From positions 1-43,245 of the forward strand of contig JAPOVS010000017.1 of NCBI GenBank assembly GCA_026708055.1: DNA of 43,245 nt. Reading direction: 5' to 3'. The translations under genes were made by a program, and so were the position numbers. Shown here one piece after another: positions 14,500 through 41,207 of this stretch; position 1 is the first letter of the stretch, and each line of letters begins with the position of its first letter. The notes beneath the pieces are model-generated. The model was not told the DNA's origin. It searched no databases and was given only the letters and a program-made list of their open reading frames with translations. The DNA is from a bacterium. Lineage in GTDB: Bacteria; Actinomycetota; Acidimicrobiia; Acidimicrobiales; CATQHL01.

Positions 14500-14545
14500 C
14501 CGAGCCCTGCACTCCGGCCTGCGCCGGTACGACGATCAGGGATGT
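14500..14545. repeat. Dispersed hairpin repeat, GGATTCCGGC-type, degenerate copy
   Basis: CCGGC (14514-14518) and GCCGG (14523-14527) form a short hairpin followed by TACGACGATCAGG. It is a diverged copy of the ATTCCGGC-loop-GCCGGAAT repeat seen intact at 21400-21419 and 40873-40892. It lies in the gap between the SMC-like gene and the second toxin-antitoxin-like pair, a region without a gene of its own. Confidence 0.5.
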
Positions 14546-18451: not shown

Positions 18452-18768
18452 GCCCAGAGCATAGGAAGGGGGTGTGACACTCCCGGCCCGGCCTGCGCGG
18501 TGCCAGCCGGACTGCCGTCGTTCCCCGCACAACCCGCGCCCGCGGGCGAGGTCATCCCTGAGCTTGTCGGGCTCGGGCGCCGCGGGTTCGGAACCCGTTA
18601 CCGCGGGCGAGGTCATCCCGCGCCGTCCGCCGGGTTGCTGTCTGCCAGCACGCCCGAAGGCATATTCCGGGACGTGATGCGGACACCCGATGCGGAATGC
18701 GGACAGCTAGTGCATGATGCGGACATTCAATGCGGAATGCGGACAGCGAGTGCAGGTAGCCTGTATGT
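18452..18768. repeat. Divergent intergenic region with two direct-repeat families
   Basis: This 317-bp interval separates the phosphoesterase gene from the AAA ATPase gene. A 19-bp direct repeat CCGCGGGCGAGGTCATCCC is at 18540-18558 and 18601-18619. Between the two lies the odd palindrome CGGGTTCGGAACCCG (18583-18597). A 40-bp tandem repeat with TGCGGAC motifs follows at 18676-18755 and is listed separately. No gene is supported here. Confidence 0.6.
18676..18755. repeat. 40-bp tandem duplication rich in TGCGGAC, just before the AAA ATPase
   Basis: Units 18676-18715 and 18716-18755 match at about 34 of 40 positions. Each contains GATGCGGACA and TGCGGAATGCGGACAG, so TGCGGA occurs six times in 80 bp. 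The array ends 13 bp before the GTG start of the ATPase gene and could be an operator or a transposon-end remnant. Confidence 0.7.
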
Positions 18769-21232: not shown

Positions 21233-21515
21233 CGCTACGGCCCTCGACCGAAGAACGCACGACCGAGGGAGGGGGCACCGGGGGCCGGCCGGCGGAGCGA
21301 TTTCGCCAGACGCTCCCGCCGACGGCCACCGCCGCCCCCGACCGGACAACGACGCCAGGACGGATTCCGTCCTGGGCCGGTCTGACGAAGCTCGACTGGA
21401 TTCCGGCCCCCGCCGGAATGACGAGACTCGGCTGGATACCAGCCCCAGATTGAGTCCGGAACAGGCTCTTCGCCGACATGACAGAGGGAGAGAATCACAA
21501 CTGGGAAGAGGCTGC
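21233..21515. repeat. Gene-free interval with two dispersed hairpin repeats
   Basis: From 21261 to 21350 lies a copy of the second palindromic repeat type: GAGGGAGGGGGC at its left end, a hairpin with arms GGCGGAGCG (21291-21299) and CGCTCCCGCC (21311-21320) around ATTTCGCCAGA, then GCCGCCCCCGACCGGACA. At 21400-21419 is an intact GGATTCCGGC-type hairpin: ATTCCGGC, four C, GCCGGAAT, followed by GACGAG. A degenerate second hairpin copy precedes it (21362-21390). The interval separates two genes on the same strand. Confidence 0.7.
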
Positions 21516-27118: not shown

Positions 27119-27159
27119 GGGTGACTCCAGCCAGTCGTACTTGAGTTTCTTCGTCTCCG

Positions 27160-27245
27160 GTCCGGTCGGGGGCCCGGGGTGCCGTTCGCTCCTTCAGCGC
27201 GGGCGCAAGGCGTCGCGAATCGGCCCCCCGACCCCCTCCCTCGTC
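27160..27245 (-). repeat. Palindromic dispersed repeat copy (PAL-1 type)
   Basis: Minus-oriented copy between the ligase and the LLM gene. The conserved core is CCTTCAGCGCGGGCGCAAGG, flanked by arms GTTCGC (27183-27188) and GCGAAT (27214-27219). CCTCCCTC lies at its outer end and GTCCGGTCGGGGGC at the other. I see no gene in this 160-bp gap. Confidence 0.75.
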
Positions 27246-29247: not shown

Positions 29248-29532
29248 GGGGATGCTCCTTCGGTTTGGGTTCGTTGATCTGTCGGCGGTTCTGTCCGGGC
29301 AGCGGTTCTGTCCGGTCGGGGGCCCTGTCCGGTCGGGGGCGGCGGTGGCCGTTCGCTCCTTCGCGCGGGCGCAAGGCGTCGCGAATCGGCCCCCGGCGCC
29401 CCCTCCCTCGGTTGTTGCTTTCGGATCGGGCGTGGTTGGTCTCCAATAGGCGTCGCGAATCGGCCCGCTGCGCCCCTCCCTCGGTTGTTGGTTCGGTTAC
29501 GTCGGTACCTCGGACCCTGCAGGGTCGGGCTG
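29248..29532. repeat. Gene-free interval with one full and one partial palindromic repeat (PAL-1 type)
   Basis: A full minus-oriented copy spans about 29329-29412: arms GGCCGTTCGC (29347-29356) and GCGAATCGGCC (29381-29391) enclose CCTTCGCGCGGGCGCAAGG. With one bulged A the outer arms pair over 10 bp. A partial copy (GGCGTCGCGAATCGGCCC to CCTCCCTCGGTTGTTG) is at 29449-29490, sharing the exact CCTCCCTCGGTTGTTG end of the first (29402-29417). GTCCGGTCGGGGGC also repeats at 29309-29342. No gene is seen. Confidence 0.8.
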
Positions 29533-30451: not shown

Positions 30452-30492
30452 TACCAAACGAGCGGTTGACAGTCATACGTCATTGGTACAGT
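30452..30492. promoter_or_regulatory. Candidate promoter and operator between divergent SDR and DUF35-thiolase genes
   Basis: TTGACA at 30466-30471 and TACAGT at 30487-30492 could be a plus-strand promoter, though the 15-nt spacer is short. They are framed by an inverted repeat TACCAA (30452-30457) and TTGGTA (30483-30488), and overlap TGACAGTCA (30467-30475) with another GTCA at 30479. Such nested inverted repeats suggest a TetR- or FadR-like repressor site. Confidence 0.4.
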
Positions 30493-30521
30493 CCTACCGT
30501 GTGGAGAGCGGCGTCGGGACG

Positions 30522-32246
30522 ATGAGCACCGGAGGCGATCCGGCGGTGTTCGCCCGCGAGGGGCCCGGTCACGATCCGCGGCCCGACGCCACCGCCGAGG
30601 GACTGCGCGGCGGGCGCTGCGCATCGTGCCGGTATCCCATGCTCTACCTGCCGCCGCTTTGCCCCTCCTGCGGCGGTTCGCCGGTGCAACCTGCCTGCTT
30701 CGGCCCGGGCGGAACGGTCTGGAGTTCGACCGTCCTGCGCATTCGCGTTGCGGACCTGCCCCCGCCGGCGGTTCTGGCCTACGTGGACTTCGACGAGGGC
30801 CCCCGCTCGCTCGTGCACGTCGACAGCCCTGCCGACGAGCCGCTCCGGCCGGGTACGCGGGTCAACCTGCTCGGCCGCGACGACCGCGGCGACCCCCTGG
30901 TGACCCCGGCCGACCTCGACGCCCGCGCCGGCAGGGGTGGGACCTCGGGCAACCGCCCCCCGCCGCCACAGCCGGTCGCTGCCGCGACCCCCGACCGGAC
31001 GGACCGACACGCGAGGGAGAGGGCACCGGGTGCCGACTCGCGACGCCTTACGTCCGCGCCGAAGGAACGAGCAGCCACCGCCGCCCCCGACCGACCCGCA
31101 CCTGTGTCCGTCCGGGGGGTCGGCACCAGCCGCTTCGCCCGCCAGCCGGAGACCCCGCCGAGGCACCTCGCCTGGCAGGCTGTCACCGAGGCGCTCGCCG
31201 ATGCCGGCATCACACCCGCGGCTGTCGAGGCCGTCTACGCGGGCACCGTTTTCGGTGACCCCGGCGTCACCACGCGGACTCTGCAGCACCTGGGGATCAC
31301 CGGCGTGCCGGTCGTGACGGTGGAGAACGCCTGCGCCAGCGGCACGACGGCGTTTCACGAGGCCCAGGCGGCGGTCGCCGAGGGGCGATACGAGACGGTG
31401 CTGGCGTTCGGGATCGAGACTATGACCGCTGTCTTCGACGGGCCCATCGAGCCACTGGCCTCGGACCCCGAGGGCGCCCAGGGCTTCGCCATGCCCAGCC
31501 TCTACGGCATGGCGGCGCGCCGCTACCAGCACTGCTACGGCGTCACCCCCGAGCAGATGGCGCTGGTTGCGGTGAAGAACCGGCGCCACGCGCTGGGCAA
31601 CCCTCGCGCCCAGCACGCCGGCAAGTTCACCGTCGAGCAGATCCTGGACTCGCGGCCGATCTCGGACCCGTTGACGCTGCTGCAGTGCTGCGACATCAGC
31701 GACGCCGCCGCCGCGGCGGTGCTCGGCCCGGCGCGCACGGCCGGCAGCGGCTCGGACGTGCCGGTGCGGGCCTCGGCGCTGGCCTCGGGCCAGGCCTGGG
31801 ACCACACCAGCGACCTGGTCTGGGGCTGGCAACTCGTGTCCGAGGTGGCCACGGCCGCCTTCGAGAACGCGGGCATCGGGCCCGAGGACATCGACGTGCT
31901 CGAGGTCCACGACGCCTTCACGATCGGCGAGATCGTCACGACAGAGGCGCTGGGCCTGTGCGAGTTGGGCGGTGGCGGGGCGCTCGTGTCCTCCGGCCGC
32001 ACCAGCCTCGGCGGCGCCCATCCCGTCAACCCGTCCGGCGGCCTGCTGGCCAGGGGGCACCCCCTCGGCGCCACGGGGCTGGGACAGATCGCCGAGATCG
32101 TCTGGCAGTTGCGCGGCGACGCCGAGGGTCGCCAGGTGGACGGCGCCCGCATCGGCGTGGTGGAGACGATGGGCGGCGGCACCGCCGGCATCGACGGCAA
32201 CGCCTGCGTGGTGGCGGTGCTGGAGGCGCCCGGAGGCCGGCGGTGA
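30522..32246 (+). CDS. Fusion of DUF35 (zinc ribbon plus OB fold) and thiolase-like protein
   Basis: This 574-aa protein joins two units normally made as separate subunits. Residues 30-130 are DUF35: zinc ribbon CASC-x10-CPSC (Cys33, 36, 47, 50) and an OB fold (GTVWSSTVLRIRV, AVLAYVDFDEGPRSLVHVD). Residues about 196-574 are a thiolase of the SCP2/non-decarboxylating type: VSVRGVGTSRFARQP, VENACASGTTAF (nucleophile Cys271), VHDAFTIGEI, GGLLARGHPLGATG and GGGTAG. DUF35 proteins scaffold and activate thiolases and retro-aldolases such as Ltp2. The linker (residues 163-191) is encoded by a dispersed DNA repeat. ATG 30522 is preferred; GTG 30501 is possible. The stop overlaps the P450 start (GTGA). 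Confidence 0.88.
   Translation: MSTGGDPAVFAREGPGHDPRPDATAEGLRGGRCASCRYPMLYLPPLCPSCGGSPVQPACFGPGGTVWSSTVLRIRVADLPPPAVLAYVDFDEGPRSLVHVDSPADEPLRPGTRVNLLGRDDRGDPLVTPADLDARAGRGGTSGNRPPPPQPVAAATPDRTDRHARERAPGADSRRLTSAPKERAATAAPDRPAPVSVRGVGTSRFARQPETPPRHLAWQAVTEALADAGITPAAVEAVYAGTVFGDPGVTTRTLQHLGITGVPVVTVENACASGTTAFHEAQAAVAEGRYETVLAFGIETMTAVFDGPIEPLASDPEGAQGFAMPSLYGMAARRYQHCYGVTPEQMALVAVKNRRHALGNPRAQHAGKFTVEQILDSRPISDPLTLLQCCDISDAAAAAVLGPARTAGSGSDVPVRASALASGQAWDHTSDLVWGWQLVSEVATAAFENAGIGPEDIDVLEVHDAFTIGEIVTTEALGLCELGGGGALVSSGRTSLGGAHPVNPSGGLLARGHPLGATGLGQIAEIVWQLRGDAEGRQVDGARIGVVETMGGGTAGIDGNACVVAVLEAPGGRR
31011..31095 (+). repeat. Palindromic dispersed repeat copy inside a coding region (PAL-1 type)
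   Basis: The copy runs from GCGAGGGAGAGGGCACCGGG to CCGCCCCCGACCG. The core GCGACGCCTTACGTCCGCG has diverged, but stem CTCG (31037-31040) and CGAG (31067-31070) keep complementarity with different bases from other copies. Its length keeps the reading frame of the DUF35-thiolase fusion open and it encodes residues 163-191. Confidence 0.75.
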
Positions 32247-34269: not shown

Positions 34270-34307
34270 CGGCACCGATCCAGACCCTGCAAGGACGGAC
34301 CAACAAT

Positions 34308-34491
34308 CGAGGGAGGGGGGCGGGGGGCCGAACTGCGACGCCTTGCGCCCGCGCGAAGGAGCAGAGCGGCACCGCGGACCCCGCCCGGACCGCAGCAAAC
34401 CGACCAGGGCAGGGGCCGGGGGGCCGAACTGCGACGCCTTGCGCCCGCGCGAAGGAGCAGAGCGGCACCGCGGACCCCGCCCGGACCGCAG
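34308..34491 (+). repeat. Two palindromic repeat copies in tandem (PAL-1 type), 74 bp identical
   Basis: A 74-bp block at 34322-34395 is repeated without a mismatch at 34418-34491 (period 96 bp). Each has the core GCGACGCCTTGCGCCCGCGC with AAGG, flanked by arms CTGC and GCAG, and ends CCCGCCCGGACCGCAG. GAGGGAGGGG lies at the left end of the first copy. The interval 34270-34533 contains no gene. Confidence 0.85.
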
Positions 34492-40861: not shown

Positions 40862-41207
40862 CGACAGCCTGGATTCCGGCCTTCGCCGGAATGACGAGTC
40901 AGCGAGGGTGGCGACACCGGGGGGCGGCGCCGGATCGATTTCGCCAGACGACCCGCCGACGGCCACCGGCGGCTCCGCCCGGACAACCGCAGGACGGCGA
41001 GGGAGAGCGGCCGGGGGCCGATTCGCGACGCCTTGCGCCCGCGCGGAATGAGCGAACAGCACCCAGGCGGCCCCGACCGGACAACCGCGAATCCGCGAGG
41101 TTGGGAACCGTTCTTATTGTTGAGTCTTTTGGTCGGGAATCCGGTAGCCTGCTCCGGTCGGCCGACGGCCGGCGCAGAATTCGCACCGGAGAACCGGAGG
41201 ATCACTC
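40862..41207. repeat. Gene-free interval with three hairpin repeats and the carbonic anhydrase leader
   Basis: An intact GGATTCC-type hairpin (ATTCCGGC 40873-40880, loop CTTC, GCCGGAAT 40885-40892) lies 11 bp after the upstream stop. A copy of the CGATTTCGCCAGACG repeat type spans about 40918-40985, and a PAL-1 copy spans about 40998-41086 (GATTCGCGACGCCTTGCGCC and later GAGCGAAC). Then an AT-richer stretch (41108-41135) and TAGCCT (41145-41150) may hold the promoter of the carbonic anhydrase gene, whose ribosome site is GGAGG at 41196-41200. Confidence 0.7.

Follow-up and report, generated by a model that had tools for sequence, protein, structure and literature searches.

A hairpin repeat in the linker of a predicted DUF35-thiolase fusion protein and its likely presence at the junction before the two genes were joined

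Introduction

The origin of linkers in fused bacterial proteins is rarely seen directly. A locus at which it may be followed lies in a stretch of 43,245 nt, hereafter the window, from a draft genome of the Acidimicrobiales (contig JAPOVS010000017.1), where a DUF35 unit and a thiolase unit occupy one open reading frame and the segment between them contains a copy of a dispersed repeat. The original prediction held that this repeat had once been situated between two separate genes and that an in-frame event had converted it into a linker. This raises the question which came first, the repeat or the fusion, by what change the two frames were joined and whether the product is really one polypeptide. 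The window genome is referred to as G000, its congeners as G001 to G007 and a genome of the sister genus as G008; all are draft assemblies. Several of the congener MAG series are presumably sponge-derived.

Results and discussion

A DUF35 unit and a thiolase unit in one reading frame

The first unit of the frame (Table 1) is a DUF35 protein with a ChsH2-type OB-fold. OB_ChsH2_C (PF01796) matched residues 61-115 with 41 bits at a Pfam cut-off of 27.1, and a four-cysteine zinc ribbon (CxxC...CxxC) could be read from the sequence; matches of this unit to 7pxp_A and 9myr_B were weak. The second unit is predicted to be an enzyme with an SCP2-type, thiolase-like fold. The Pfam thiolase domains, which scored above cut-off, begin at about residue 209 and the NCBIfam thiolase models at residue 194, and the active-site motifs are present, with Cys270 in ENACASG followed by HDAFT and GHPLGATG. 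The unit is of the SCP2-thiolase/archaeal thiolase kind and is 34-36% identical to its best solved relatives, the best of which was SCP2-thiolase type-1. The joining of the two units in one frame, as originally predicted, is borne out by the open 574-aa frame together with the Pfam and NCBIfam domains. The same fusion was carried by G004 (COS4_bin_33), the proteins being 96% identical. Upstream of the DUF35 start, at about 30467-30500 of the window, a TTGACA-like string and the bases following it were conserved in G001, G003, G004 and G007; this string is perhaps the operon promoter.

Table 1. Coordinates in the window of the fused frame, its parts and the further repeat copies.
Feature	Position	Strand	Evidence or remark
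Fused DUF35-thiolase open reading frame, 574 aa with Met	30522..32246	+	ATG 30522, TGA 32244-32246; no internal stop
DUF35 unit (zinc ribbon and OB-fold, PF01796)	30522..30914	+	Pfam; AlphaFold pLDDT mostly about 85-95
Fusion point, 5 nt net shorter than G002, DUF35 stop (GTGACC) lost	30930..30942	+	NTGACC here in G001, G007 and G002
First half of linker	30943..31009	+	Common to G002; weak similarity to 3' end of the repeat
Copy of the 85-nt hairpin repeat, hairpin lost	31010..31097	+	In frame, residues 163-192 counted from Met
Thiolase unit	31101..32243	+	Pfam, NCBIfam; conserved Cys270, His462, His512 (numbering without Met)
In-frame GTG, possible start of a stand-alone thiolase (MSVRGVGTSRF)	31104..31106	+	Reading of sequence
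Divergent (variant) repeat copy, 30.8 bits	21262..21348	+	Covariance model
Intergenic repeat copy	27159..27245	-	Covariance model
Intergenic repeat copy, closest to linker copy	29326..29412	-	Covariance model
Intergenic repeat copy, first of tandem pair	34306..34391	+	Covariance model
Intergenic repeat copy, second of tandem pair	34402..34487	+	Covariance model
Intergenic repeat copy	40996..41083	+	Covariance model

The repeat is a palindromic element with a conserved hairpin

The repeat measures about 85 nt and is imperfectly palindromic. Its consensus folded far better than shuffled sequence, with a z of -4.8 as RNA and of -3.5 as DNA. Over 84 distinct copies, both partners were changed in 17 of the 25 pairs, the corresponding numbers being 6 for shuffles and 4-9 for slid controls; the counts lean towards the tested structure, as the alignment had been fitted to it. 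The repeat is a dispersed palindromic element with a conserved hairpin. With a covariance model (E up to 0.01) it was detected in all 8 genomes of the genus, in 5 to 35 copies each, and no copy was detected in G008, which belongs to the sister genus of the same family. Neither was it found in a sample of 115 genomes that represented other genera of the order. This suggests that the element is restricted to the genus. Its copies lie mostly just behind gene ends, 65 of 85 having a coding-like stop on one or both sides at a distance of no more than about 400 nt, and the other copies in the window (Table 1) confirm that it occurs between separate genes elsewhere.

As a short GC-rich hairpin with many copies in one genus, mostly near gene ends, the element resembles REP and MITE-type palindromes. 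It differs from REP in that no REP-associated Y1 (RAYT) transposase was found in the 8 genus genomes by a search for an autonomous mobile partner that consisted of PF01797 (5 of 14 control genomes were positive), and the repeat had no match in Rfam at gathering thresholds. Its classification as a REP mobilised by RAYT was rejected because PF01797 was absent from these 8 genomes.

Some other repeats were seen in the window. A second, shorter palindromic repeat (CTGGATTCCGGCC..CGCCGGAATGACGAG) is located at 14507-14536, 21396-21425 and 40869-40898, and a 20-bp tandem repeat (TGATGCGGACA...) at 18675-18754. GCAG units are repeated at the end of the contig (43182-43241), perhaps where the assembly stopped.

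A repeat copy in the linker

The linker extends from about residue 131 to 193 and is rich in Pro, Arg and Ala; the peptide stretch GTSGNRPPPPQPVAAATPDR lies in this region of the fused frame. A repeat copy had been recognized in residues 163-191, and its presence was confirmed with practically these limits (Table 1). The copy is 88% identical to the one at 29330-29410 (E 2.7e-22). It scored 52.9 bits (E 1.6e-7 in the whole genome) with a covariance model that was built from nine other copies only and from which the linker copy had been left out, so that the match is not due to chance. The hairpin itself is gone in the linker copy, the fold of which had a z of +0.8, compared with the strongly negative value of the consensus. 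The first half of the linker was considered as another partial repeat, but its similarity to the repeat was weak (p 0.02 in G000 and 0.005 in G002).

Separate genes at the same locus in relatives

In G002 (SB0661_bin_55) the repeat was found at the same place (32.5 bits), and the DUF35 frame is closed by a TGA inside GTGACC. The thiolase of this genome is in a different frame from DUF35, and from the DUF35 stop to the thiolase core the thiolase frame offers a single ATG, GTG or TTG, which is the GTG of GTGA. Because the only nearby start overlaps the DUF35 stop in this way, translation of the repeat as an N-terminal extension of the thiolase probably predates the fusion. This intermediate comes from one genome and one MAG contig, which starts inside the DUF35 gene. 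It supports the claim that the repeat sat between separate DUF35 and thiolase genes before these were fused.

In G001 (SB0668_bin_6) and G007 (IRC4_bin_37) the DUF35 stop lies in the same NTGACC string and is followed by a spacer and by a thiolase gene with an ATG. The covariance model recognized no repeat in these spacers. A faint hint of a decayed repeat was obtained for the G007 spacer (p 0.006; 12.9 bits, E 0.012), and the G001 spacer was negative in this respect. G003 (277c_6), where a run of N stands in place of the linker and the bases that follow it are similar to the repeat's 3' end, was left out of the junction series. G008 and further genomes of the order carry two separate genes with a short overlap, usually NTGA. 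Likewise, among 41 loci from named genomes, the great majority of those with both domains had separate genes, many of them with NTGA. The comparison of homologous loci that had been proposed with the original prediction thus yielded the expected series: separate genes without recognizable repeat (G001, G007, G008 and outgroups), separate genes with the repeat (G002) and fused genes (G000 and G004).

The joining change

The conserved strings CGCGCC and ACCTC are separated by 12 nt in the window genome and by 17 in G002. With the 5 nt that are lost net, the TGA disappears and DUF35 comes to lie in the frame of the thiolase. As the second frame of an NTGA overlap lies one base before the first, the loss of 2 (or 5) bases or the gain of 1 is sufficient to merge the two. 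The presence of NTGACC in G001, G002 and G007 implies that the stop is the older state. The predicted conversion of an intergenic repeat into a linker is supported, with a refinement of the route. The repeat was probably present before the fusion, as G002 indicates; the joining, however, was not an in-frame event but a net indel of 5 nt that changed the frame, and by then the repeat was probably translated already.

As all genomes are drafts and the region is very GC-rich, the 5-nt difference might be an artefact of assembly or sequencing, the genes being separate in reality. This is hardly credible, given that the same junction is present in two separate assemblies, those of the window genome and COS4_bin_33, which differ from each other by 5-9% outside a shared tract. 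In this tract of about 2 kb (about 29.4-31.5 kb), which includes the fusion junction, G000 and G004 are nearly identical, the divergence being found on both sides of it. The fused junction was probably exchanged recently between the two lineages by recombination. Because of this near-identity and its probable cause, selection since the fusion could not be measured at the junction.

Is the linker translated?

The linkers of G000 and G002 differ by three indels of 6, 3 and 3 nt, which are all multiples of 3 and fit with a reading frame that has been kept. Their substitutions are spread evenly over the codon positions, and no purifying selection on the linker was seen between these two genomes (dN/dS 1.05; the values for DUF35 and the thiolase were 0.22 and 0.14). 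In the AlphaFold model (pTM 0.84) both domains were well predicted and residues 136-187 had a pLDDT below 50. The best reading of these data is that the linker is a disordered tether that would act by its length and flexibility, its exact sequence being of little importance.

Alternatively, the fusion might exist on paper only, a stop having been lost by chance in a GC-rich genome. The thiolase would then be made mainly from the in-frame GTG at 31104, which gives a normal thiolase N-terminus, and the repeat would still be a spacer in effect. A linker dN/dS of about 1 agrees with this, as does the composition of repeat and linker, to which their few stops can be ascribed. Indeed, the absence of stops from the repeat is not unusual, 35% of composition shuffles being likewise open in six frames. 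However, without a stop after the DUF35 unit ribosomes must continue into the thiolase, no Shine-Dalgarno sequence was evident by eye before the GTG, and the linker indels kept to multiples of 3. We therefore consider a fusion on paper only unlikely. A separate thiolase start at this GTG could nevertheless be used, and a mixture of fused and short thiolase forms may be produced. Translation through the linker into one polypeptide is the reading adopted below.

The repeat probably preceded the fusion in this genus

The original prediction had named homologous fusions with unrelated linkers in distant taxa as a sign that the fusion came before the repeat. Such a fusion was found in Actinomycetes bacterium ZJ4.bin53 (L105, 3001-4533), with the same domain order in one frame and a short Gly/Arg-rich linker unrelated to the repeat. 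DUF35-thiolase fusions have also been mentioned in the literature (PMC2954200, from 2010). Both agree with an old DUF35-thiolase fusion into whose linker the repeat was inserted later, the unfused relatives being fissions. However, the close relatives and most outgroups have separate genes with the same NTGA overlap, and G002 carries the repeat without the fusion. Moreover, the fused genes are not grouped together in the thiolase tree: those of G000 and G004 are nested well within a clade of unfused genes, with the L105 fusion far away from them, so that two separate origins were needed in 200 of 200 bootstrap trees. L105 is for this reason no evidence that the fusion came first, and is better regarded as an independent fusion. 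An old fusion is rejected by the outgroups and the thiolase tree and largely refuted by G002, and we consider it very unlikely. Judged from these sequences, the fusion did not precede the repeat in the genus. As L105 with its unrelated linker shows, DUF35 and thiolase can be fused without the repeat; in this genus the repeat may have helped to bring about the fusion or may have been carried along.

G002 is grouped with G000 and G004 by its DUF35 part and by the junction. In the thiolase tree this grouping is not firm (support about 80) and was drawn open. As the two parts differ on the placement of G002, the repeat may be older and have been lost in G001 and G007, or the junction may have been moved by recombination.

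The following history is regarded as likely. The ancestor would have had two translationally coupled genes, DUF35 and then thiolase, with the 4-nt NTGA stop/start overlap that the sister genus and most outgroups have today. In the genus, a copy of the 85-nt palindromic element would have come to lie just after the overlap and in the thiolase frame, as it does in G002. By use of the GTG start the thiolase would have gained a repeat-encoded N-terminal extension while DUF35 was still stopping. A net loss of 5 nt at the overlap would then have removed the stop and given rise to one predicted 574-aa polypeptide with the repeat inside a disordered tether of roughly 50 residues. Such a fusion would most likely be a tethered form of a DUF35-thiolase complex, comparable to ChsH2-Ltp2, BbsAB and Shy-Sal. 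As both families form complexes, tethering them is plausible.

Comparison with known systems

DUF35-aldolase/thiolase complexes have been documented for ChsH2-Ltp2 and Shy-Sal (PMC11321319), and also by the structures of ChsH2-Ltp2 (6ok1) and BbsAB (7pxp). In these systems and in Shy-Sal the same two protein families work as a complex, whereas here they would form one chain, DUF35 followed by thiolase, with a repeat-derived linker. From this chain the L105 protein differs by its short unrelated linker and its separate origin. Bacterial gene fusions that arise by deletion are being surveyed (PMC12803068). There, as here, a deletion joins two reading frames; the fusions described concern fragments of distant genes, whereas in the present case only 5 nt net were lost and both genes are whole.

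Rickettsia palindromic elements (RPE) occur in frame inside protein-coding genes (reviewed in PMC10969869, which cites Ogata et al., 2000, on RPE). The present element works like RPE in so far as it is a small dispersed palindrome that is also found in frame in unrelated protein-coding genes (DUF35-thiolase and prmC) and adds a peptide segment to them. This likeness is functional and membership in the Rickettsia families is not claimed. In contrast to RPE, the element is seldom found inside genes (131 copies gave two gene loci) and then stands in spacers between conserved blocks; frequent in-gene insertion was rejected on the basis of this number. A further difference is that one of the segments is the joint of a two-gene fusion of which an unfused relative still has the repeat. 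In the literature, which was covered in part, no description was found of a dispersed repeat as fusion linker for which the unfused repeat-bearing state was also seen. Here the unfused, the repeat-bearing intermediate and the fused state all occur within one genus, and the joining change is a 5-nt difference; NTGA overlaps place two frames one small indel from fusion. The locus suggests that Rickettsia is not the only group in which dispersed hairpin repeats can become disordered spacers of proteins.

A second gene with the repeat

When the 131 repeat copies were screened for a coding-like frame on both sides, 6 were found in such a position. These belong to only two gene loci, DUF35-thiolase (G000 and G004) and prmC (G000, G003 and G005); the G002 copy at the former locus was counted as a terminal extension. 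The identity of prmC was established by NCBIfam TIGR03534, which scored above cut-off. In this gene the repeat is antisense and in frame, and separates the RPETE motif from the DLGCGSG motif (L136 1006-1092; L188-L191; G000:C22:26166-27155). The spacer between these motifs has 27-30 residues in G008, G001 and G006, and 62 in G007, 68 in G000, 80 in G005 and 99 in G003. In G000 the model detected a single copy and in G003 a tandem pair; the copy in G005 was weak, and all were antisense. The repeat has evidently entered proteins at least twice, each time in a spacer between conserved blocks.

More tentatively, with somewhat more doubt than confidence on our part, the genus-specific hairpin element may repeatedly supply flexible interdomain spacers. 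It would have done so in prmC, by element copies that extended the spacer from 27 to 99 residues, and in the overlapping gene pair, where it would have preceded and accommodated the fusion. If this is true, the pool of intergenic repeats is a source of ready-made, stop-poor linkers, rich in Pro, Ala and Arg, that make the fusion of coupled genes tolerable. The empty and filled prmC sites, which were compared by eye for target-site duplications, were strongly diverged.
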